Shown: piece by piece, positions 2,970-21,114 of the stretch
Layout of the letters: each line of letters starts with the position of its first letter
How positions within the stretch are numbered: position 1 is the stretch's first letter
Origin: a virus
Virus record (IMG/VR): IMGVR_UViG_3300046516_001094
Span: 1-21,114 of that record
DNA length: 21,114 bases
Strand: one strand, 5' to 3'
Notes under the pieces: model-generated
Told to the model about the DNA's origin: nothing
Databases searched by the model: none
Seen by the model: only the letters and a program-made list of their open reading frames with translations
Program-made: the position numbers and the translations under genes

Positions 2970-3574
2970 AGGATGAGCAGCGGCTCGTCAGCGTCGAGGT
3001 TGTCGAGGAGGAAGGACACGTCAGGATCGATCTTGCCGAGACGCGCAGCGGCGATGGCGTCGGTCCCGATCGTCAAGATCCCATACGGGGTCTCACGTGC
3101 GCGCTTGAGGTAGCGGCCGGCGAGGATCGTTGTCGCCTGCGTCACCTGGTACGGCGCCGTCGTCCAGCCGAACGTCCCGCCTATCTGGACTCCATAGTTG
3201 AACGGAGGCCAGATGTCGCCCTGCTGCGGCCTGAGCGTCACCTGATTGTATGGGCGCCCGTCCAAGGCGGCGTTGATCGGCTCGAGGTAGAAGTCGGTGT
3301 TCTGAACCCAGGTTGTGCCGTAAGACCCTGTGCCGTTCATGTCGACTGTGAGAGCGGTTAGCGTGACGAGGTCGTCGATCTGGATGCTGCACTCGGACTG
3401 GTTGGCCGTGTATTTGCGCGTCTCGGCGGTCGGGTAAAAGCGAGTGTCTTTGTAGGCGTCGATGACACGACTCGCCGCGCTGATCGCGGTGGTGATGTCG
3501 TCGTCGGCGTAGGTTGCGGTCCCGATCTCAAGCGTGTTCTTCAACTGGGTGCTGGTGATGTAGTTAGTCGGCAA
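2966..3574 (-). CDS. Head-tail connector (HK97 gp6-like)
   Basis: 202-aa protein beginning MPTNYITSTQLKNTLEI. N-terminal helices (DDDITTAISAASRVIDAYKDTRFYP) are followed by a beta-rich middle (TRKYTANQSECSIQIDDLVTL, then VTLRPQQGDIWPP) and C-terminal helices (TTILAGRYLKRARETPYG). This is the layout of gp6-like adaptor proteins, which form the ring under the portal. The start is TTG at 3574 with an AGGGAGG ribosome site; it overlaps the stop of the upstream fused glycosyltransferase by 11 bp. It is the first tail-neck gene after the glycan cassette. In most phages it would follow the capsid gene closely, so the cassette appears inserted between capsid and connector. Confidence 0.78.
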   Translation of the reverse strand: MPTNYITSTQLKNTLEIGTATYADDDITTAISAASRVIDAYKDTRFYPTAETRKYTANQSECSIQIDDLVTLTALTVDMNGTGSYGTTWVQNTDFYLEPINAALDGRPYNQVTLRPQQGDIWPPFNYGVQIGGTFGWTTAPYQVTQATTILAGRYLKRARETPYGILTIGTDAIAAARLGKIDPDVSFLLDNLDADEPLLIL

Positions 3575-4679
3575 GTGTCAGCGCCTCCCTCGCTCGAGCC
3601 ATGAACCGCTCCCGGTTCGCGAGCGTCGCCGCGCGCACCCTCGGGTCGTCCGGCTTCATCGTCGCGTTACGGATGTGGTGGAGTGGTACGCGCACCTCTC
3701 GGAGAGTCATGCCTGCCATACGGGCGCGGAGGCAGAGGTCGTTGTCCTCGAAGTAGGCGGGCGGGTTGAAGTCCTCGTCGAAGCCGCCAATCTCTAGGAG
3801 ATCATCTCTCATGCCGGCGAGACACCAGCCGTCGAGGTAGGGCATCGGTGTTCCGTCGACGGAACCGTGCGGGTCGTCTCGAAGCTGTGCTCCGATGAGG
3901 ACGCCGGGTTCGACTGCTTCGCGGATCGGCTCGAGCCAGTACGGGTCTCGCGCGAGCACGTCGTTGTTCAGGAACAGGACGATGTCGGACTTGGCCGCGT
4001 ATAGGCCGCGGTTGCATGTTGAGCCGAACCCCACCGAATCCTCGTTACGGAGTGTCGCGAACGGGATAGGCGGGTCGGATCCGTCGTCAACAACGATCAG
4101 CTCGTCGCGTGGACTGCGCCGGATGACTGCCTGCTTGTATCCGTCCGCGAGCTCCAAGTGGTTCAACCAGGGAGTCACGATGCTGATGGTCGGGAAGTCG
4201 GGTCTGACGGTGCAGACGATCTCGTCGCGCCACATGACTCCGCCCATCTTCTCGACGCATCCGCTGATGAATGAGAAGTCGCCGCCGGGTTCTTTGAATC
4301 CTGGCGCGTGTTCCTTCCATTCGCCCAATAGTTCGGGCTGGTTCGGCACGAGGAACATGGGAGTGCCGACGTTGCCGAATTCGAGGAACGGTTGCCGCCA
4401 CATCACACCGTGCTGGTGGTGGTCCATCTTGAAGATCACCGGCACGTTACAAGCCGCTTCACGCATCAACTTGATCGCTCCTGGCGTGTAGACATCGTCG
4501 TCGTCGAGGAATGCGAGATGGGTTCCTGTGGCCTTCTGAATGCCTCGGGTGCGCGCCGAGTATCCGTGGTCTCCGTCTTGGTTCTCGATCACGATGACCT
4601 CGTCGGCTCCGGCACATGATTCTTTCGCGTCAGCCAGCGAGTCGCGGCCGAGGGTCGGAATTATCACGCTTATCGTCAC
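3564..4679 (-). CDS. Bifunctional glycosyltransferase with two fused GT2 domains
   Basis: 371-aa protein. Domain 1 (about residues 1-155) starts with the GT2 strand TISVIIPTLGR and has an acidic metal/nucleotide-sugar site, FLDDDDVY (58-64). Domain 2 (about 162-371) starts again with TISIVTPWLNH and has IVVDDGSD (195-202), the LFLNNDVLARD motif (236-245), the GGFDE acceptor loop (298-302) and FEDNDLCLRARMAG (310-323). Each half therefore looks like a GT-A fold transferase using a nucleotide-sugar donor. The start is GTG at 4679, overlapping the upstream methyltransferase stop as GTGA; a longer ATG start at 4706 would overlap that gene by 31 bp and is less likely. Domain 1 lacks a clear DGS-type first motif, so it could be degenerate or have a different specificity. 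Confidence 0.85.
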   Translation of the reverse strand: MTISVIIPTLGRDSLADAKESCAGADEVIVIENQDGDHGYSARTRGIQKATGTHLAFLDDDDVYTPGAIKLMREAACNVPVIFKMDHHQHGVMWRQPFLEFGNVGTPMFLVPNQPELLGEWKEHAPGFKEPGGDFSFISGCVEKMGGVMWRDEIVCTVRPDFPTISIVTPWLNHLELADGYKQAVIRRSPRDELIVVDDGSDPPIPFATLRNEDSVGFGSTCNRGLYAAKSDIVLFLNNDVLARDPYWLEPIREAVEPGVLIGAQLRDDPHGSVDGTPMPYLDGWCLAGMRDDLLEIGGFDEDFNPPAYFEDNDLCLRARMAGMTLREVRVPLHHIRNATMKPDDPRVRAATLANRERFMARAREALTLAD

Positions 4680-5272
4680 CACGTAATCACGCCGATGCCG
4701 CCCCATAGTTCAAGGTCGCGGCGCGCGTCACCCAAGAACTCTTCGGTCTCGAATCTCGGAGTCAACTGCTTCCACAGCTTCCTCACGAACACGCCGGTAC
4801 TTGTGGGATGCGGAAGGATGTCGTGGAAGGCGATCAGGCCACCTCTACGGACGAGCCAGCTATACATCGCGAAGTCTTGGAGGACTCCTTCGTAGCTGTG
4901 GTCGCCGTCGATGAACAGGAAGTCGATGGGTTCGTTGCGGAGGATCTTCATGACCGCGGTCAGCGTGCTCTGCTCGTGGGAGTTCACGTTGAGCCAATGC
5001 TCGATCTCGCGCTCGATCGTCTGTCCACCGACACTCCCACCGCCGAACGGTCCATCGGTGAGGCTGATGCTGATGATCTTCGCGTCGGGAGCGGCGAGCC
5101 TCCAAGCAAGAAGCGAGCCACCGCATTTGCTGCCGATCTCAAGGATCACCTTCGGCTCGAGATCCACTACACGGTCGACAAGATGCTCAAACTCGTCCAT
5201 CTTCTGTGAAGCGTCAGCCCTGATAGCCCACTCCGCGATCTCCGTGGCTCTAGTAGTCGCAACCGCGCTCAC
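4676..5272 (-). CDS. Class I SAM-dependent methyltransferase (Methyltransf_24/CmcI-like)
   Basis: 198-aa protein. It has motif I VILEIGSKCGGSLLAW (42-57), a following SLTDG acidic-strand region, the strong FLFIDGDHSYEGV motif (118-130) and GGLIAFHDI (144-152). The IDGDHSYEGV plus HDI pair marks the Methyltransf_24 / cephalosporin-hydroxylase-like group, which contains many sugar and small-molecule O-methyltransferases acting with a divalent metal. It begins with GTG and overlaps the upstream GT2 gene by GTGA. Wedged between two glycosyltransferases, it most likely methylates a sugar of the glycan they build; the exact substrate cannot be read from sequence. Confidence 0.85.
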   Translation of the reverse strand: MSAVATTRATEIAEWAIRADASQKMDEFEHLVDRVVDLEPKVILEIGSKCGGSLLAWRLAAPDAKIISISLTDGPFGGGSVGGQTIEREIEHWLNVNSHEQSTLTAVMKILRNEPIDFLFIDGDHSYEGVLQDFAMYSWLVRRGGLIAFHDILPHPTSTGVFVRKLWKQLTPRFETEEFLGDARRDLELWGGIGVITW

Positions 5273-5946
5273 ACGACCGCTCCGTACTTCTCACGTAACA
5301 GGGCTAATCCCTGCTGCCCTTCGCGCTCCATGCCCTCTTCGCCGATCGTGACCTTGTATGTGGCGTGGTGATCATGGTCGACCCAGGCGTCGTTCGCGAT
5401 GCCAAGCTTCCAGCCGGCCTGGCGCATCCTGATGCAGTAGTCGTCGTCCTCGCCGTAGCCGAGCCCATACTCCTCGCTGAGTGGTCCGACGTCGTCGAGT
5501 GCCTCGCGGCGGATGATCGCGCAGAAGAACGCAAGCAGACCGTTCGTGTAGAACAATGTCTGGTGGCCGGGGCCGTCGGCTCGCTGTTCCGACTCGCAAC
5601 GGTTGGTGCGCGGCCCGACGACGCCGAGGCTCTTGTCGATGCCGAAGTAGAACAGCATCTTGTCGAAGGCGTCGTCGGCTACGACGGTGTCGTTGTTGAG
5701 GATGCAGATGAACGGCGCGGTGGTGCTCTGGATGCCAATGTTCATGGCTTTGGCGAACCCATAGTTCTCGGGTAGCAGGATCATCGTGTCAGTCTCAAGC
5801 AGCTCCTTGCGAGCGTTCTCGATGTCTGCGTCGGGGCTTCCATTGTCAACGAGGATGACGCGGAAGTCTCTGGGGATGCTGTGGAGGCAGCGAACGGTGA
5901 GGTCTGAGAGTCCGCATTGGAGAAGGACGATGTCGAGTTGCGTCAT
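5269..5946 (-). CDS. GT2 glycosyltransferase (rhamnosyltransferase-like)
   Basis: 225-aa GT-A fold transferase with all the expected GT2 motifs: LDIVLLQCG at the N-terminus, ILVDNGSPDAD (31-41), PENYGFAKAMNIG (59-71), the metal-binding LNNDTVVADDAF (83-94), and a C-terminal LGYGEDDDYCIRMRQAGW (162-179). The spacing NYGFAxxxNxG ... NND ... GEDxD is characteristic of WbbL-like rhamnosyl/galactosyl transferases. There are no membrane segments, so it is predicted to act in the cytoplasm. It overlaps the upstream methyltransferase by ATGA and the downstream one by GTGA, so it is translated with both. Confidence 0.9.
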   Translation of the reverse strand: MTQLDIVLLQCGLSDLTVRCLHSIPRDFRVILVDNGSPDADIENARKELLETDTMILLPENYGFAKAMNIGIQSTTAPFICILNNDTVVADDAFDKMLFYFGIDKSLGVVGPRTNRCESEQRADGPGHQTLFYTNGLLAFFCAIIRREALDDVGPLSEEYGLGYGEDDDYCIRMRQAGWKLGIANDAWVDHDHHATYKVTIGEEGMEREGQQGLALLREKYGAVV

Positions 5947-6476
5947 TTCTGCGCTTCGATCGTGAACGAGACGTGCGTTAGACGGTTGCCGATAATCGCT
6001 TGGTGGAGTTCAGCGTCACCGGGGATCAGGGTCATTCCTTGCGGTACATCCTCTACTCGCTTGAAGCCTGCGTCTCGGAGGATCTCGCGTAACGTCTCGC
6101 GCGGGATTTTCAGTTGCGCCGGGAACCGCGCCATGTGCTCGCGCGCTGCCTCATCCGGTGGATAGACGACCCCGTCGAGGTAGCACCGGAACGGATTGTC
6201 GTCGATGCGGAGCCAGCCGCCCGGTTCAAGGATTCGGTAGCACTCGGCCATGATCGGTGCGAAGTCAGGGTGCGCCGGCACGCCTTCTTCGCCGACGAAC
6301 AGGGCGTGCGACATCATGATGATCTCGGCTGACTCGTCGGCGTAGCGGTATGGGAAGTCCTCGAGGTCGAGGTAGGTGCTGCCGGGTTCGCCGCTGATGT
6401 CGCTGTTGTCGAAGCCAGGCCAGATCGCGTATCCGCAGGCGAAGTTGAGGCGACTGGCTGTCAGCGTCGCGGCCAT
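5943..6476 (-). CDS. Predicted SAM-dependent methyltransferase
   Basis: 177-aa protein. It starts with a motif I variant, RLNFACGYAIWPGFDNSDI (9-27), matching the LNLGCG...PGWxNxD pattern of small class I methyltransferases found in glycan clusters. It also has DLEDFPYRYADESAEIIMMSHAL (37-59), equivalent to the motif II/III region, and CYRILEPGGWLRIDDN (79-94), equivalent to motif post-III. Glycine 1 of the usual GxGxG loop is replaced (ACGYA), as is common in this subgroup. The start has a GAGGGAG ribosome site inside the upstream 66-aa gene and overlaps it by 16 bp. Probable role: a second methylation of the same glycan. Confidence 0.72.
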   Translation of the reverse strand: MAATLTASRLNFACGYAIWPGFDNSDISGEPGSTYLDLEDFPYRYADESAEIIMMSHALFVGEEGVPAHPDFAPIMAECYRILEPGGWLRIDDNPFRCYLDGVVYPPDEAAREHMARFPAQLKIPRETLREILRDAGFKRVEDVPQGMTLIPGDAELHQAIIGNRLTHVSFTIEAQK

Positions 6477-6661
6477 AGCTGCAACTCCCTCAACCGTGTC
6501 ATCAGTAGGGCACGCACATCGGCTTCGCTTGCGCTTTGCGTCTTCGGTCCGATCAGAGTCTCCAGATATTCTTGGCGCTCATCCCAGTTCATCACGGACA
6601 TACGGCGCACGTGGATCGCAATCTCGTTGCGGATTCCGGCGAGGCGTGGGCTGTTCTTCAT
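6461..6661 (-). CDS. Small helical protein of unknown function in glycan cassette
   Basis: 66-aa protein starting MKNSPRLAGIRNEIAIHVRRM and ending RALLMTRLRELQLWPRR. It is basic and predicted to be almost all helix. It overlaps the upstream deacetylase-like gene by ATGA and the downstream methyltransferase by 16 bp, so it is embedded in the co-translated cassette. I do not recognise a family. A role as a partner or adaptor of a neighbouring enzyme is possible but only inferred from position. Confidence 0.6.
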   Translation of the reverse strand: MKNSPRLAGIRNEIAIHVRRMSVMNWDERQEYLETLIGPKTQSASEADVRALLMTRLRELQLWPRR

Positions 6662-7218
6662 GCGGTGACCTTGAAGGATGGCTGTACCACCTCGCTGATG
6701 AGCTCGAACGACTCGGCGTTCGAGACGCGGTCAACGAGATAGTCCCATGACTCGTTCAATCCGTTGGAACCCCAATCCTGAATGTGGGTGTGCACGTGAT
6801 CGCCGTCATCGAGACGGTGAACTCGTAGTCCTTCCGGCCTGCGCTCGTCGTTGTACGGCTGGTCTGCAACCCACCAGTCTGAGTCCTCGAGCGCCTCGTA
6901 GCATTCGTCGCTGATGATCCAGCCGGGCGCCTTGAATCCGCGTTTCCAGCGGGGGTTCTTCTCGAGCTGATCGATGACCTGGACCATCTGGTCGTAGGTC
7001 CAGTCACGGCACTCGCCGCCGTCGCTTCCGGGGTCTCCGTGTAGCCATCCGTGCGGCACAACCTCGATCCAGTCGGGGAGGCGCGCGAGATAGGCGCGCG
7101 GGCACTTCGATGGGATCGCGAACGCTGTCATGCGGAACAGAGGGTTCACGGCGCGTAGACGGAAGAGGAGGTCGAGACGGTCGTGGCCTTCGTAGAGATC
7201 ATCGCTGTCGAAGATCAC
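6658..7218 (-). CDS. Polysaccharide deacetylase-like (NodB-fold) protein
   Basis: 186-aa protein whose motifs follow the NodB order: acidic pair DSDD (4-7), metal-type HGWLH (56-60, HxxxH), KAPGW (96-100, counterpart of RxPxW), DSDWW (112-116, counterpart of DxxDW) and HVHTH (141-145). Members remove N- or O-acetyl groups from sugars using a metal held by one Asp and two His. The start is GTG at 7218, giving a GTGA overlap with the upstream GT2 stop; the frame is open to 7755 upstream, but that part lies inside the GT2 gene. Size is near the minimum for the fold. It could also be an uncharacterised hydrolase of the DUF2334 type. Expected role: trimming acetyl groups from the glycan or its precursor. 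Confidence 0.7.
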   Translation of the reverse strand: MIFDSDDLYEGHDRLDLLFRLRAVNPLFRMTAFAIPSKCPRAYLARLPDWIEVVPHGWLHGDPGSDGGECRDWTYDQMVQVIDQLEKNPRWKRGFKAPGWIISDECYEALEDSDWWVADQPYNDERRPEGLRVHRLDDGDHVHTHIQDWGSNGLNESWDYLVDRVSNAESFELISEVVQPSFKVTA

Positions 7219-7892
7219 GCTTTTGCCGCCTCTAGTTCGGCTTCCTTGCGAACGAAGTAGTCGGGGATGTCGGCCTGCTGGCCGGCCGTCGTCAGGTAGT
7301 GCCATGCTTCCAGCCGTTTCACGTAGCCGCAGGTTCCGCCCTGTCGGCGATACCACCAGCAGAGTTGAACGTCGTCGAAGAGCATCTGCCTTTCGTCGTA
7401 GCGGAATTCGTCGTAGACCCAGGCTGGTACGGCCATGAAGATGCTGCCGATCTGGGGAACGTCGAGGATCGACTCGTTCCCGATCGAGAGTTCGCGCATC
7501 GCCTTCGGCGGGTTCTCTAGTCCAAGGATTCGTGGTGAGAGGATGCAGCCGCCCTCGAGCACGAGTGAGCACACGTCTTTGAGCGTGTCCGGCTGGGTGA
7601 GTTGGCAGTCGTTGTCGTATTTGACGATCAGGTCGTAGTCGGCGCTGGCGAGCGCGAGCTCGACGAGTTCGTTCATGCCGCGGCAGATACCGACGTTCTC
7701 CGGCTGCGAGACGATGGTCTGGACTCGGTTCGCGGAGAACTCTCCGTCGAGCCATTGAAAGGTGTCGTCATTGGAGGCTTGATCGAGGACGTAGTGGTCG
7801 AAGTCGCAGCCGGCGAACTCGTGGAGTGACGCGAAGCACTCTTTCGTGTAGTCGAGCCGGTCGCGCGTCAAGCTGAGGACCGCGATCTTCAC
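7215..7892 (-). CDS. GT2-like glycosyltransferase
   Basis: 225-aa GT-A fold protein. N-terminal strand IAVLSLTRDRLDYTKECFASL (3-23), VLDQASNDDT (35-44), PENVGICRGMNE (64-75), and the metal-binding motif VKYDNDCQL (90-98, DND in place of DXD). Further on it has IGSIFMAVPAW and LFDDVQLCWWYRRQGG. The DDVQLCWWYRRQG segment corresponds to the ED acceptor-side motif. The start is GTG at 7892, GTGA overlap with the 36-aa gene. No membrane segments. It probably transfers one sugar of the same glycan as the other transferases; the donor cannot be predicted. Confidence 0.85.
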   Translation of the reverse strand: MKIAVLSLTRDRLDYTKECFASLHEFAGCDFDHYVLDQASNDDTFQWLDGEFSANRVQTIVSQPENVGICRGMNELVELALASADYDLIVKYDNDCQLTQPDTLKDVCSLVLEGGCILSPRILGLENPPKAMRELSIGNESILDVPQIGSIFMAVPAWVYDEFRYDERQMLFDDVQLCWWYRRQGGTCGYVKRLEAWHYLTTAGQQADIPDYFVRKEAELEAAKA

Positions 7893-7999
7893 TTTCCTTT
7901 GCTCACCGGAGGCTTCTTCGGAGGCTTCCCCTTCGGAAGTCGGACAATAAGTTCGTCGGGGACTGCGTTATTTCCGGTTCCTGAGATGCTAAGAGCCAT
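7889..7999 (-). CDS. 36-aa Lys/Pro-rich small protein
   Basis: Short ORF MALSISGTGNNAVPDELIVR followed by LPKGKPPKKPPVSKGK. The ATG at 7999 has a GGGGGAAG ribosome site, overlaps the upstream gene by 11 bp, and its TGA overlaps the next GTG (GTGA). These junctions fit the operon's coding pattern exactly, which is the main support that it is real. The basic proline-rich tail suggests an extended segment. No family recognised. Confidence 0.5.
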   Translation of the reverse strand: MALSISGTGNNAVPDELIVRLPKGKPPKKPPVSKGK

Positions 8000-8141
8000 T
8001 GTCTTCCCCCTTCGGCTTCTGGAATCCTGTCGGTGTAGACACGGCGTGCGGCGTCATCTTCATCTCATGCCAAGTCTTCACCTTGCCGTCAACAACAGTC
8101 ACCCGCGTCTCCGTAATGGGCAGCCAGATTTCTTTTACCAT
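7989..8141 (-). CDS. 50-aa protein of unknown function
   Basis: Starts MVKEIWLPITETRVTVVDGK and ends FQKPKGEDNGS. Probably a small beta-rich domain. The ATG at 8141 shares one base with the GT4 stop (TGATG), so translation is coupled to it; the frame extends further upstream but would overlap the GT4 gene. No recognised family. It sits between GT4 and GT2 genes in the cassette. Confidence 0.55.
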   Translation of the reverse strand: MVKEIWLPITETRVTVVDGKVKTWHEMKMTPHAVSTPTGFQKPKGEDNGS

Positions 8142-9370
8142 CAGACTTTCACCCTTTCCTTTGCCCGTCTCATCGCCCGGTTCGGTCCGATCGGCTTCAC
8201 CTCGCGCGGAGAATGAATCCTCTCCAACGCAGGCTCCCAATACTCGCTCATCACCTTGTTCACGTCGTAATCGACCGCGAACTTGCGAGCGCGAGCCCGG
8301 AACACTTCATCGCCACGCGACTCATAGGCCAACTCGAGCGCGTCCACGATGGCGTCGATGTCGGGTTTCATCCAGAACGCTTCCGCCATCGCGTGATCCC
8401 ACGGGATACCGCCGACCTTCCAACCGGCACCGACGAGCTCCGGCATCGAAGTCCAGTCCGTCACGATCACCGGGGTCCCGCAAGCCTGAGCCTCCACGAT
8501 CGGGATTCCAAACCCCTCACCGTAGGACGGGTTGAGGAGCACGTCGAACAGGTTGTAGAGGCCCGCCATAGCGGCGGGCGGGTAGACGTGCTCGAGCCTA
8601 ACTTGTTCGGTGAGACGGATCGCCTCTGGCGGGATCTCGAACCGTTCCAGCATCCGGTAAAGGTTCAGTCCGTTGCGGAACCCGGTCATCTCCGTATGGA
8701 GGTGCAGGATCGCGTCAGGGTGTGTCTGCTGGAAGACGGAGAACGCCATGAACGACTCGCTGAACGACTTGCGTGCCGGTGACTGGCCCTGGTTGTTAGC
8801 GACCATGCCAACGATGAAAGCGTCCTGCGGAACCTCAAGCAGCTCGCGGAACTTGGCGAGTTCGGGTTTGTCGCTGGGAGCGAACATCTCCGTGTCGATC
8901 CCGTGCGGAACGTAGAGCGGGTCGAGACCGGCCTCGCGGAGTTGTGTCTCTCCGAACCGCGACATCGCGATCGGGATCGCCCCGGACTCGCGGAGGAAGT
9001 TGACTACCGCCGGGGGTGCCGGGTTATGGTCGACGGGCACCCAACAGGCGAGTCTGCCCTGCTGGTCGATGGCTCTATAGACGTCTACGTCTAGCGGCCA
9101 TACGTCGAACAGGGTGATGACGGTGCACGGGTCCCCGTTGCCGTGGTGCATCGCCCATTGGTAGACGGTGCGGTTCCAGTCCTCGCCTGGGTAGACGTGG
9201 AGGCCGTTCCATTTGATCGGGCCTCCCTGCAATCCGAATCCGCTCGAGATGGCGAGGTCGATGTTGTCGAGGGCGCCGATCCGTGGCGCGAACAGGCCGG
9301 TCTGTTGGCCGTAGCCAGTCGGAGCCCACGGACATACGGAGTGCCAGAGGATTTTCTTTACGCCGTCCAT
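8141..9370 (-). CDS. GT4-family (GT-B fold) glycosyltransferase
   Basis: 409-aa retaining-type glycosyltransferase. The N-terminal Rossmann domain carries the acceptor glycine loop region (WAPTGYGQQTG, 15-25). The linker has VPHGIDTEMFAP (154-165), typical of GT4 enzymes. The C-terminal domain holds FIVGMVANNQ (185-194), the K201 region, and the EX7E motif EGFGIPIVE (285-293) followed by ACGTPVIVTDWTSMPEL. These contact the nucleotide-sugar. The ATG at 9370 overlaps the preceding 63-aa gene by 13 bp and has a GAGAGG ribosome site. It is the first and largest enzyme of the cassette. By fold it differs from the GT2 enzymes, so it probably adds a different linkage, possibly the first sugar. The cassette acceptor is unknown. 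Confidence 0.93.
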   Translation of the reverse strand: MDGVKKILWHSVCPWAPTGYGQQTGLFAPRIGALDNIDLAISSGFGLQGGPIKWNGLHVYPGEDWNRTVYQWAMHHGNGDPCTVITLFDVWPLDVDVYRAIDQQGRLACWVPVDHNPAPPAVVNFLRESGAIPIAMSRFGETQLREAGLDPLYVPHGIDTEMFAPSDKPELAKFRELLEVPQDAFIVGMVANNQGQSPARKSFSESFMAFSVFQQTHPDAILHLHTEMTGFRNGLNLYRMLERFEIPPEAIRLTEQVRLEHVYPPAAMAGLYNLFDVLLNPSYGEGFGIPIVEAQACGTPVIVTDWTSMPELVGAGWKVGGIPWDHAMAEAFWMKPDIDAIVDALELAYESRGDEVFRARARKFAVDYDVNKVMSEYWEPALERIHSPREVKPIGPNRAMRRAKERVKV

Positions 9371-16488: not shown

Positions 16489-16649
16489 GACAACTCCGGC
16501 GGAAAATCCGCACAGGGGTTATCCATGAACCGCTCCTCCGCAAGTCGCTTCGGATCGCAAACATGCTCGCCATAGTGGTCGATGCCTGCCTGCCCGACGA
16601 TGACTAGACCGCCGCACTTCTCGCATTCATAAGCGCCACAGCAAGCCAT
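16485..16649 (-). CDS. 54-aa zinc-binding-like protein
   Basis: Reads MACCGAYECEKCGGLVIVGQ, then a region with H25, H29 and C31, ending DFPPELS. CxxC (9-12) with a later HxxxHxC suggests one zinc site. The ATG shares one base with the portal stop (TAATG), and the portal's own acidic end supplies a GAGGAGG ribosome site. Role unknown. Confidence 0.6.
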   Translation of the reverse strand: MACCGAYECEKCGGLVIVGQAGIDHYGEHVCDPKRLAEERFMDNPCADFPPELS

Positions 16650-18607
16650 TACTCGTCCTCCTCGTCCTCGGGCATCTCGGTGATCGTCACTGAATCGCCA
16701 TCATCGAAGTCGATGCGACGCGCCTCACCGTCCGTCACGACTGCGCTGCGCCCGTCTCCGTAGTCAACGCGGCGCTTCTTCGCGCGCTCAATCGTCACAT
16801 CAACGTCAGGCGGTTCGACGTTCACTTGGATGGCTCCCTCTTCGATCCTGGTGGGTTCGATGGTGATGTTCGCCGGCGGCGGCGTTTCCACAACAACCGC
16901 GCCCGGTTCGATAGTCGTCTGCGGCGCGTCAATATGGACGTCAGGTGCAGCAACATCAGTACGGATCGCCCCCTCCTCAAACGTCACCTCTGCTGGATGA
17001 GTTTGGATCGAACCTTCCTCGAATGTGACGGGCGCCTCCACATGGACGTCTGGTGTGGTGATCTCGGCGCGGATCGCTCCCTCGTGGATGTTCACGTCCG
17101 GGGCAGCCGGGAGTTGGAACGCGCCGTAGTCGAAATGGACGTGAGTGTCCGAACGCGCCGGCGGAGCGGGAGACGTGTTCCCATTGCCGTTCGTGGGTGC
17201 TGTCTGGGCGGCGGGCGGAGCTCCGGGTTCCGTGTTCGGCACTGGGACGCCTGCGAACAATCCCTGCTTCGGAGCAGTAGCGGCTTGGAGCTGGACGCTG
17301 AACAGACCGCTGTGCTCGAGAAGGCTGAGGTCGTTCGACGTGACTGCCTGGATGACGGTGTCCGGCTTGTAACCCGCGTCGACCAAGTAGCGGATGGTGA
17401 TGGATTCTTTCTGGAGGATCTCGGCCTGCTCGACAGCGTCTTCTTTTAGGAAGCTGATGTCGCGCGGGTCGGTAGACAGGTTGGCGTCTCCGGGCACGTT
17501 GATGATGTTCGCAAGGGCTCCGGCTGCCGAGTTCCAGAGATCCAAGATGACTCCGTCGACGAAGTTGCGGCGTGCCGCCTGATAGTTGCCTGTGTTCAGG
17601 CTCGAACCCTGCAACCCTTCGGACAGTCCGACGATGACGGGCGGTGTGCCGGCTGCTGCGGCGATCCTTGTCTCGCCGGCGCCGGTCACCAACCTGTAGT
17701 CGAGCTGCTGCATGTTCGATCCCACCGGGGTCGCGTCCACACCGGACGTGGTGAACATCCACTTGAAGGCGTTGCGCGGCCCGCGATGGGCTTCCTTGAA
17801 CGCTTTGACCTGTTGCTGGTATTGCTCGAGGTCGGGCACGTCGAACTTGACGACCATGTTCGGGGTCGGATTCTCGAAGAACCTCAGCTTGGATTCGGTG
17901 GCTGCCTTGTCCGCCATCACCTCGCGGATCAGCGGGGTCAACCAGGACATGCCGCGGAAGCGTGCTTCCGGGTCGGCGATCGGTGCCCAGTGGGCGACAT
18001 CTTCCGGCAGGAACGTCTCAGTTTCGTAGCCCTGTGTTCCATAGCCGCCAGGCGAATACACGTAGCCGAGAACCTCTGCGTCGGTGGCCCAGGCGCCAAT
18101 CTCCGGGTTCGTGTTCGACCCGATCACGATCGTCACCCAGTCCGGCCTGAGCATCGCCAGTCCGTCGCCTTTGCGGACGACGAAGCAGTTGCCGCCCAGG
18201 TCGACGTGCATGATCATCCGGGTCAACAGGCTTTGTGTGGTGCCACCAACCCACGGCGTCTCCAATGGTTGAAGTTCGGGTGTGCCGAAGTAGTCGGTCA
18301 GGCGTCCGTCTCTTAGACGCTGGAACTGGAAGCGCGCCTGGTTGAAGTGGCGCGCTCGCGTCTGCATACAGGAGAACACGACCGAGTCGGACTTGTAGGC
18401 GAGCTCTGTGATGGCCCGGTAGGCGGGTCCGATGACCTCCTGCTTCTGACCGGGCTGGGTTTGTTGCGGGCCTTGGGTGAAGTAGGCGTTGCCGTTGTAG
18501 ATGAATTCGTTGAGGTAGGCGATGTAGCCGTCGAGTGAGAATTCGGTCTGGTCGCGGTTCGCTTCCTCGAGATCCTGTGACTGAAAGCGTGTCGGAAGGA
18601 ACCTCAT
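16649..18607 (-). CDS. Portal protein with C-terminal repeat domain
   Basis: 652-aa protein. Residues about 1-440 are an HK97-type portal: ITELAYKSDSVVFSCMQTRA (66-85), DLGGNCFVVRKG (136-147), MADKAATESKLRFFENPTPN (231-250) and IAAAAGTPPVIVGLSEGLQGSS (315-336). The portal forms the dodecameric DNA entry ring. After a Pro/Gly/Asn-rich linker (450-485), residues about 505-606 carry five EEGAIxxxxxxPDVxV-type units, and the end is acidic (PEDEEDE). Usual portals of this family are about 400-500 aa, so the extension is unusual. ATGA overlap with TerL fixes the start. Confidence 0.93.
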   Translation of the reverse strand: MRFLPTRFQSQDLEEANRDQTEFSLDGYIAYLNEFIYNGNAYFTQGPQQTQPGQKQEVIGPAYRAITELAYKSDSVVFSCMQTRARHFNQARFQFQRLRDGRLTDYFGTPELQPLETPWVGGTTQSLLTRMIMHVDLGGNCFVVRKGDGLAMLRPDWVTIVIGSNTNPEIGAWATDAEVLGYVYSPGGYGTQGYETETFLPEDVAHWAPIADPEARFRGMSWLTPLIREVMADKAATESKLRFFENPTPNMVVKFDVPDLEQYQQQVKAFKEAHRGPRNAFKWMFTTSGVDATPVGSNMQQLDYRLVTGAGETRIAAAAGTPPVIVGLSEGLQGSSLNTGNYQAARRNFVDGVILDLWNSAAGALANIINVPGDANLSTDPRDISFLKEDAVEQAEILQKESITIRYLVDAGYKPDTVIQAVTSNDLSLLEHSGLFSVQLQAATAPKQGLFAGVPVPNTEPGAPPAAQTAPTNGNGNTSPAPPARSDTHVHFDYGAFQLPAAPDVNIHEGAIRAEITTPDVHVEAPVTFEEGSIQTHPAEVTFEEGAIRTDVAAPDVHIDAPQTTIEPGAVVVETPPPANITIEPTRIEEGAIQVNVEPPDVDVTIERAKKRRVDYGDGRSAVVTDGEARRIDFDDGDSVTITEMPEDEEDE

Positions 18608-20034
18608 GCGAACCCAACCGCCACGAACGGACGCTTCTCCTGCGTAGCCTCAGCGCGATAAGCGATCGTGGCCGCTACGAGCGGCGTGATGTCCGACCGC
18701 GAGTGCTTCCGCGACCACGCCCACGCGTCCGCAAGCGTCCGCTGAGCAGCACCGCGAACAGCCGCCTCGAGAGCAGAATCCCCATCATGGACGATCGTTC
18801 CCTGCTCAACTGCGTCAAAGAACATGCCGCAGGCGCGCGTGTATTCGACGGTTCCGATCGTCTCAACCGTCACGCCGGCCTCCTCGAGCTCGTCCAGCAA
18901 GGATGCGGCGGGCCCGCGGTCGTCACACACGATCCGCTCCGGCCGCAACTCCTCGATCAGCTCGACCAACCGATCGACGATCCAGCCGGTCCCAGCCTGA
19001 CGGTCGACGAGACCTATCTGCACCTTGTCGCCGACCCTTTTAGCGCCCATGATCGTCGCCCAAGTCCTGATCGGCGACACATCCAGCGACAACGTCGGCT
19101 CCTCCAACTCCACGTCGCCGGCAAGCGATGCCCAATGCTTCGCATCGAACAAGCCGGACACGGAAGCGTCCGTGGGAGGCCAATCACCCATCCCATACAG
19201 CTCCACGGCCGCAGTTCGGGGCGGCATACCCGAAATCTCGTCCAAAACGGTGTCCTCCGAGATCAAACCGTCCGCCATCGACGGGTTCGCGGCCCTCGCG
19301 AGGCTCATGTCGCTCAACATCTCGATCGTCACCTCTGCTGGGTCGCCCTCAGCCGACCATTCATGCCATGAGACGCGCGGATCCTGCTCCAAACCGCGTT
19401 TTCGGATGCGCGCGAAGTTCACGCCATGCTCATGGACGAGCCTGTCGACCGCCGAACCCGCGTAAATCGTCTTCGAGCCATGCCGAGCCGTCGAGGCGCG
19501 CGTCATCGGCTTCTGCGCCCCGACAACCTTGTCGTTGATGACCATCGCCTCGTCCCAGACCAGCAAATCCGCCGAATAACCACGGCCTGAGCCGGTCGTG
19601 CGCGACTTGAACAGGATCCGGCAGCCGGATTTCAGGTTGATCGACTCCTGACCGTTCGCGTGACGGTACCCAGACCGCTCCCTAACCCTGGAATGGAGGC
19701 TTGGAGCGTCCTGAATGAACGACTCGAGGCGCAACTGGTGCTCCTGCGACGTCGCGAACTCGTGGGCGGTGTGCATCACGACCGGATAGTCGAGCTCGAA
19801 CGCCGCATACGCCTCCACAACCTGCAAAACGACACCTTTGCCGTTCTGGCGGGCCACATCCAATCCGTCGTCGGCTGTCGCCCACTGATCCTCAGCGTCC
19901 AAAGCGAGGATGGAGCGGATGACGACCTTCTGCCAGTCGAAAAGGTGGCCGCCGGCCGCCTCCCACCACGCGATTGCCTCGTCGCCGAGAGTCCGAGCCG
20001 ATGCTGGCGCCCACGCGAACCGCGGCTCGATCAA
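18604..20034 (-). CDS. terL: Terminase large subunit
   Basis: 476-aa DNA packaging motor. The ATPase half has an ARQNGKG Walker A variant (61-67) and LLVWDEA Walker B (157-163). The nuclease half has LSLDVSP (D318), IVCDDRGPA (D371/D372) and a final Asp in SDITPLVAATIAY (D448). The layout matches the HK97/actinophage TerL group. The start is TTG at 20034, giving a TTGA overlap with the HNH gene, with a GGAGG ribosome site eight bases upstream. Located first in the packaging-head block with the portal immediately downstream. No small terminase subunit is visible in the window. Confidence 0.95.
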   Translation of the reverse strand: MIEPRFAWAPASARTLGDEAIAWWEAAGGHLFDWQKVVIRSILALDAEDQWATADDGLDVARQNGKGVVLQVVEAYAAFELDYPVVMHTAHEFATSQEHQLRLESFIQDAPSLHSRVRERSGYRHANGQESINLKSGCRILFKSRTTGSGRGYSADLLVWDEAMVINDKVVGAQKPMTRASTARHGSKTIYAGSAVDRLVHEHGVNFARIRKRGLEQDPRVSWHEWSAEGDPAEVTIEMLSDMSLARAANPSMADGLISEDTVLDEISGMPPRTAAVELYGMGDWPPTDASVSGLFDAKHWASLAGDVELEEPTLSLDVSPIRTWATIMGAKRVGDKVQIGLVDRQAGTGWIVDRLVELIEELRPERIVCDDRGPAASLLDELEEAGVTVETIGTVEYTRACGMFFDAVEQGTIVHDGDSALEAAVRGAAQRTLADAWAWSRKHSRSDITPLVAATIAYRAEATQEKRPFVAVGFA

Positions 20035-20585
20035 CTCGAGCGCCTCCGATCCCGTTTAGCCGTCGCGCAGTTGCAGCGGACGTGTTCCGGACCCGCGATC
20101 CGCGTGGGATCACCATCGACATGGCCGAGATGCCAAGGCTCCCCAGCCAAAATCCGTGTCTTGCAGCGCCAACAGTCGACCAGGCCAGCATCAACAGTGG
20201 CCGCGTACGCCTTCCGCACCTTCCGGTAAGCCGGGTTGTAGACGACCTGGTCGTAGCGGCGCTTCTCAACCGTCCGCACCCGGTGCCGCTCCCTGAGCTC
20301 CGCCGCCACACTCGGAGACTTCGGCCTCGAACCAGGCCGACGCAGCCGCTTGTCCAACATCTCCTCGCGATGCTGCTTGCAATACCAATGGTGGTTCGAC
20401 AGGACAGGCTCCTCACAGTCGCCCATCCGGCACAGCTTCGTGATCTGAGGCATCACCCTCGAACAGCCCAGACACTTCCCGTCCAAGAGATCGCCACGAA
20501 CGAAGTGCAAGCCGCAGCTCGAGCAGCGAAGCGAGCTCTGAACGACAAAACCGGCTTCCGCCGGCTCAAGTGGTGTCTGACGCAT
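20031..20585 (-). CDS. HNH endonuclease with zinc-finger N-terminus
   Basis: 184-aa protein. N-terminal zinc ribbon C21xxC24...C38xxC41; a second finger C52...C57...C69xxH72 of the short 'C-xxxx-C-(P V)-..-C-xx-H' type seen in phage proteins; then the HNH-like domain CWRC (138-141), HLGHVDGDP (152-160) and GPEHVRCNCATA (165-176), with H155, H168 and N172 as likely metal or catalytic residues. HNH enzymes beside TerL stimulate cos cleavage during packaging in HK97-like phages. The ATG at 20585 has no strong ribosome site; an internal start is possible. Confidence 0.85.
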   Translation of the reverse strand: MRQTPLEPAEAGFVVQSSLRCSSCGLHFVRGDLLDGKCLGCSRVMPQITKLCRMGDCEEPVLSNHHWYCKQHREEMLDKRLRRPGSRPKSPSVAAELRERHRVRTVEKRRYDQVVYNPAYRKVRKAYAATVDAGLVDCWRCKTRILAGEPWHLGHVDGDPTRIAGPEHVRCNCATAKRDRRRSS

Positions 20586-20689
20586 ATGTGGGTGTGAGGG
20601 TCACGTCCAAAACACCGTCACTCAGGACGTACCTCAACGTCCCGCAACCTATCAGACGAAACCCCAAAACCAGCACCGACTGGAGCTCA

Positions 20690-20896
20690 GAAGTGGACAT
20701 TTCAAAATCTGCTGTGCACTTCCGGAGGCGCCCTAAAGGGCGCCCTCCGGAGTGGGAAGTGGACGAAAGTGTACCCGAGGAAGTAGACGGGAAGTGGACG
20801 GAAGTGGACGGAAGTGCCAGTCATAGACTCAAACGCTACAGAAGTGGACGGAAGTGGACGAGAACACCCCATGACGGAAGTGGACGGAAGTGGACG
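20690..20896 (+). repeat. 10-bp direct repeat GAAGTGGACG (iteron-like)
   Basis: Perfect GAAGTGGACG copies start at 20756, 20791, 20801, 20841, 20851, 20877 and 20887. Variants are at 20690 (GAAGTGGACA), 20780 (GAAGTAGACG) and a half copy at 20811. Most copies form head-to-tail pairs at exactly 10 bp, one helical turn, so proteins binding them would lie on one face of the DNA. Confidence 0.9.
20721..20751. repeat. Long GC-rich inverted repeat
   Basis: Left arm TCCGGAGGCGCCC, loop TAAA, right arm GGGCGCCCTCCGGA: 13 bp pair with one bulged C. No T-run follows on either strand. Possible structural element of the cos/origin region, or a weak terminator of unknown direction. Confidence 0.65.
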
Positions 20897-21044
20897 ACGA
20901 ATTATTGTCACAAGCGTATTCATAACAGCAAACTACGATTTGCCCTTGACAAAATCCCAACGCCACGTGCCACGCCTCTAGGCGTCGTGCCGAGGACACC
21001 GGTCGGACAGGAGCGCAGTTGACGAGGTTGAGGGATGTGGGCTA

Positions 21045-21075
21045 CTGTCAAGACAGCCTTATTCACCGTATAAGG
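21045..21075. promoter_or_regulatory. Palindrome and hairpin near the right edge, possible operator/promoter
   Basis: CTGTCAAGACAG (21045-21056) is a perfect 5-bp inverted repeat around AA. CCTTAT (21057-21062) and ATAAGG (21070-21075) form a second inverted repeat with a 7-base loop. TATAAG at 21069 is a near-consensus -10 box on the plus strand, but no good -35 is seen, so rightward transcription is only a possibility. Confidence 0.35.
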
Positions 21076-21114
21076 CGTTGCGCTAGAAAGAAGGGGCCGG
21101 GGCCTGTTCGAGTG

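Follow-up and report, generated by a model that had tools for sequence, protein, structure and literature searches.

The locus studied here raises the question of what a cluster of short direct repeats beside the HNH endonuclease and terminase genes of a phage is for: DNA packaging, control of the late genes or replication. DNA recognition by terminases is still debated, and to our knowledge specific sites have been defined in few phages. A layout of ten sites near a probable cos, whose units have changed in concert between lineages, could serve as a natural covariation test to tell which phage protein recognises them; if the array is instead a late operator, it would define late-gene control in uncultured phages related to those of Actinomycetota. 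We conclude that the array is probably a platform for proteins, more likely for those that start packaging than for those that activate late genes.

Organisation of the repeat array

The window (the whole stretch of DNA analysed, 21,114 bases) is a complete linear IMG/VR record, so the array region runs into the record end. Its late genes all lie on the - strand, in the order HNH, TerL, portal, then protease and capsid. The HNH endonuclease gene, with a cysteine-rich N-terminal part, occupies 20031-20585 and is followed by the genes for the terminase large subunit, TerL (18604-20034; PHROG 9, E 1.2e-52), and the portal protein (16649-18607; PF04860, E 2.8e-28). The HNH protein of a close relative matches the PHROG 1808 HNH endonuclease over residues 115-181 (E 2.9e-6), the C..C, H and N residues are conserved in 13 family members, and an AlphaFold model is confident for the C-terminal part and not for the N-terminal part; a fold search with this model was uninformative. 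Between the capsid and tail genes, positions 3564-9370 (- strand) hold several glycosyltransferase-like and methyltransferase-like genes, with a PHROG 2170 glycosyltransferase match at 8141-9370.

The array adjoins the HNH and terminase genes, as the initial annotation stated, in a non-coding region that it gave as 529 bp; this is the span 20586-21114, which is cut by the record end, and the region itself may be longer. Here GAAGTGGACG is found in exactly seven perfect copies, all on the + strand and spanning 20756-20896 (starts at 20756, 20791, 20801, 20841, 20851, 20877 and 20887), with three pairs spaced exactly 10 bp and the variants GAAGTGGACA at 20690 and GAAGTAGACG at 20780, in agreement with the first description. 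It is the commonest 10-mer of the entire window, the seven-copy array is far above chance, and in 1000 dinucleotide shuffles of the 529-bp region the count of a 10-mer never exceeded two.

The conserved unit is an ACTTCC core (GGAAGT on the + strand), of which the perfect 10-mer is merely the window's local version. Read toward HNH-TerL, on the - strand, the array consists of ten ACTTCC sites in the same direction. Block A (20876-20891) holds two ACTTCC sites, 20886-20891 and 20876-20881, 10 bp apart, the homologous pair lying at 11 bp in the three close relatives described below (L028, L029, L027). Block B (20840-20855), 26 bp from block A in the window and in all relatives, pairs ACTTCC at 20850-20855 with ACTTCT at 20840-20845, again 10 bp apart. 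Block C (20779-20815), at 30 bp from block B here and in the relatives, has four sites (20810-20815, 20800-20805, 20790-20795 and 20779-20784) spaced by 10, 10 and 11 bp, against 10, 9 and 11 bp in the relatives. Site D (ACTTCC, 20755-20760) follows at 24 bp (25 in the relatives), with a weak extra variant, ACTTTC, nearby at 20765-20770, and site E (20689-20694), which is ACTTCT in the window and ACTTCC in the relatives, lies 66 bp from D in four of four phages. The spacing is thus 10-11 bp inside the blocks (9 bp once in the relatives) and 26, 30, 24-25 and 66 bp between them, so that the uniform helical phasing claimed initially holds within blocks only; as 26 bp is about 2.5 helical turns, blocks A and B would face opposite sides of the DNA. 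Apart from this claim the earlier observation is sound. A coding reading of the array is disfavoured, since the unit has 10 bp in the window and 11 bp in its relatives and none of the reading frames is open in all of them.

Conservation in related phages

Three close relatives were available, all as IMG/VR contigs: G001 (L028, L031-L033; 42,741 bp), G003 (L029, L036; 11,530 bp) and G002 (L027, L034, L035; 36,757 bp), with TerL 87% and HNH 86-91% identical to those of the window. Upstream of HNH each of the three has a homologous array, and its spacing vector is the same in all of them: 11, 26, 11, 30, 10, 9, 11, 25 and 66 bp, against 10, 26, 10, 30, 10, 10, 11, 24 and 66 bp in the window. Between the window and G001 the site cores are identical at 58 of 60 positions (97%) and the linkers at 53 of 86 (62%). 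In the tandem blocks the window has a 10-bp unit, GTCCACTTCCG, and the relatives have an 11-bp one, GACCACTTCCCG, the unit flanks having changed in concert between the two lineages. The array is present once per genome: with one mismatch allowed, the motif clusters nowhere else in each relative and its other matches are isolated.

The kept geometry and diverged linkers point to selection for a protein assembly. A protein-binding array, as proposed at first, is strongly supported by the fixed site geometry in four phages; cooperative binding on one DNA face is not supported across the whole array. Tandem repeats made by slippage and homogenised by recombination, with no function, would explain why the units changed in concert; slippage would alter copy number and spacing, whereas here all ten positions and the spacings between blocks are kept while the linkers have drifted, and we regard this origin as very improbable.

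The motif search in related phages found the array in every close relative and not in more distant phages that share the HNH-TerL order. Exact array searches of IMG/VR returned no contigs beyond the three relatives, and neither the INPHARED phages nor the PLSDB plasmids gave a match to the array region. At a TerL identity of 53-60%, the relatives that share the cos-HNH-TerL order have neither an array nor room for one. The closest array-less relative, G006, has in its right part a strong 9-bp tandem repeat of GGCTGCG units (L120:523-700).

Alignment with the relatives also marks a conserved block, TTTTGTCAAGGGCAAATCGTAGTTTGCTG...TGACAATAATTCG, on the side of the array that faces the probable genome end (20897-20957), and a leader of high conservation that runs from site E to the start of HNH (20586-20688). 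A GGAA-loop hairpin, GAGCCGGCGGAAGCCGGTTTT, overlaps the HNH 5' end (20547-20567, - strand) and is conserved in L029 despite an HNH frame interrupted by an insertion. This insertion, of about 175 bp, lies at the HNH 5' end of G003 (L029:481-655), and the 45 bases upstream of it, including the hairpin, are conserved though they no longer code for HNH.

A probable genome end beside the array

Two of the contigs, G001 and G003, open at one and the same homologous position, which precedes HNH by 435 bp and the core of the first site by 127 bp. That their first bases differ speaks against a break in the assembly graph; that both come from one metagenome weakens the independence of the coincident ends. 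G002 is cut elsewhere, in the capsid gene, its two ends overlapping on G001, and it reads through the end point as ...CTCTCCTAGCCCGCG/CTTTTGAGG... (the slash marks the end point); we infer the same cos in G002, at CCCGCG/CTTTTGAGG. The position matches cos-like contig ends in some 30 distant relatives (TerL 36-60%), most of which start at the motif CCCCGCA/GTC...CTCTCTCC or shortly ahead of it, many within about 30 bp, directly upstream of HNH-TerL. In one of these records, G006, the first bases are GTC... and the last are ...ATGAC; missing is precisely the CCCCGCA that through-reading contigs have (ATGACCCCCGCAGTC), and trimming of a 3' overhang would give this result. Rhodococcus phages usually have 3' extensions of 5-11 bases (PMC13313380). 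In three distant relatives (L018:167, L105:2708, L064:13) the putative cos, ATGACCCCCGCAGTC, overlaps the first HNH codons (M-T-P-A-V), so the HNH gene may be whole only once the ends are joined.

In the window itself, the last 157 bases do not align with the end region of the relatives; the end beside the array is thus a probable one, deduced from the contigs of the relatives rather than located in the window record. Near the record end, at 21085-21106, the sequence AGGCCCCGGCCCCTTCTTTCT (- strand) faintly resembles the family cos motif, and the record may begin at its own genome end.

A second array lies across the probable end. In G001 and G002, the right end beyond the last gene and a hairpin carries RTCGC-N6 units at exactly 11 bp, in 6-7 copies, a stretch that is the top periodic region of both genomes (periods 7-15) and that in G002 stops about 280 bp before the putative cos. 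None of eleven more distant records has the pattern, and the right end that would hold it is beyond the reach of the window record.

A possible packaging site or late-gene control region

The best-supported reading, which we put forward tentatively and at somewhat less than even confidence, is that of a cosB-like packaging element beside cos. Repeated sites in a fixed layout, as expected of such an element, were found in four phages, and the position fits, since about 125 bp separate the array from the probable end of the relatives, beyond which there is a second 11-bp array. The packaging site favoured at first for its location by HNH-TerL gains from this nearby probable end and is weakened by the distant cos-HNH-TerL relatives that have no array. 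The array would bind protein at many sites to the left of cos, where the terminase genes lie; on its ten fixed sites a phage protein would assemble together with the second 11-bp-phased array across cos; the complex might then cut concatemeric DNA at cos and hold the left end for packaging. Candidate binders are a small terminase that escaped recognition or, in concert with TerL, the HNH protein with its many cysteines. Searches with PHROGs on the scanned genes and with PF05119 (Terminase_4) gave no small terminase, although these proteins are too diverse for this to prove absence. The sites, their kept geometry, their occurrence once per genome, their distance from the probable end in the relatives and the second array are observed, while the cos position, the protein binding, the identity of the binder and the packaging role are deduced. 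A more specific proposal, which we consider unlikely, is a new cos architecture in which two unrelated arrays phased at about one turn (ten ACTTCC and 6-7 RTCGC units) flank the cut in an HNH-type cos phage that has no recognisable small terminase, and the HNH or another protein replaces TerS in DNA recognition.

Also against packaging, the ten sites do not lie on one DNA face, and the array is placed exactly where a control region of the late operon would be. The ten direct repeats precede the HNH-TerL-portal operon and could be bound by a phage activator or repressor, in the manner of Alt/Ltr/RinA-type late regulators in phages of Gram-positive hosts. Such repeats have a precedent just upstream of packaging operons, about four of them lying immediately upstream of the packaging/structural operon for Ltr-type activators (phi13 P23) and the Alt repeats of TP901-1 lying at -76 to -32 (PMC13123087), and late control would easily explain why the array is missing in distant relatives. 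Downstream of site E the leader holds a conserved extended -10-like sequence, TGRTAGGTT (20646-20654, - strand), a single match that is weak as promoter evidence; about 0.5 matches to TGnTAnnnT are expected by chance in such a stretch. No consensus promoter was found, and most sites lie 120-250 bp upstream of the -10-like match with a strong hairpin between. This G+C-rich hairpin, between sites D and E (20717-20754, - strand; about -30 kcal/mol as RNA, z about -4 to -5), has compensatory changes on both sides in 4 of its 16 base pairs (three distinct sequences) and no T-run directly after it; the terminator scan of the window region was negative. Hairpins on either side of the region also fit late control.

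A candidate regulator for late control is a 69-aa Sigma70_r4_2-type helix-turn-helix protein encoded directly after the AAA_25 helicase (L032:19443-19652), which in G001 is some 3 kb short of the right end and not directly upstream; a weak relative of it is present in G006, which has no array. Late control also leaves the second array beyond cos unexplained. On balance we see it as possible, at clearly less than even confidence. The two roles may both hold, since in SPP1 the packaging site overlaps late promoters (PMC6316719).

An origin of replication (iterons) or a plasmid-type partition site would be a third function. Arrays of 10-11 bp direct repeats are present in the partition sites of some plasmids, and in the circular form of the genome the array would lie a few kb from the replication genes. 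The AAA_25 helicase is some 3-4 kb from the array, rather than adjoining it as an initiator gene would; a better iteron candidate, three CAAACCTAGG repeats, lies nearer this helicase in G001 and G002; cumulative GC skew has no clear turn at the array; and no ParA-like (PF13614), integrase or serine recombinase genes were found. This reading is thus improbable. The three iteron-like direct repeats, CAAACCTAGG...GTCCTCTGA, are 23-27 bp apart (L033:785-853, or G001 40785-40853; G002, reverse orientation, about 25449-25520) and lie in both genomes between replication-type genes and the right end, as a candidate origin or operator in their own right.

Comparison with known systems

The stoperators of Cluster A/CA phages are, like the sites described here, short, asymmetric and in one orientation. 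Stoperators are scattered through the genome, whereas the ACTTCC sites form a single cluster per genome, and a stoperator reading was rejected. With the late-activator repeats of the Alt/Ltr/RinA type (TP901-1, phi13) the array shares direct repeats right upstream of the packaging operon, but it has ten repeats rather than about four, over about 200 bp, no recognised promoter near most of them and an activator that is only a candidate.

Among terminase sites, the literature search found none built of helically phased direct repeats. In SPP1, the cut is flanked by pacL and pacR, both of which are bound by TerS (PMC6316719), and as in pacL-pacC-pacR the binding regions here would lie to either side of the cut and adjoin the terminase genes. 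SPP1 is however a headful packager, while here each side has its own motif, phased at 10-11 bp. A part for the HNH protein has a parallel in HK97, where the HNH protein gp74 stimulates cos cutting (PMC11331095). Lambda cosB (R3-I1-R2-R1) resembles the array in that several short recognition sites lie within a few hundred bp of a cohesive-end cut, on the side of the terminase genes. It has three TerS sites (PMC4669245), with R2 inverted, an IHF site and 5' overhangs; the phages studied here have ten ACTTCC sites of one orientation, arranged in blocks, and an HNH gene in place of a recognised TerS.
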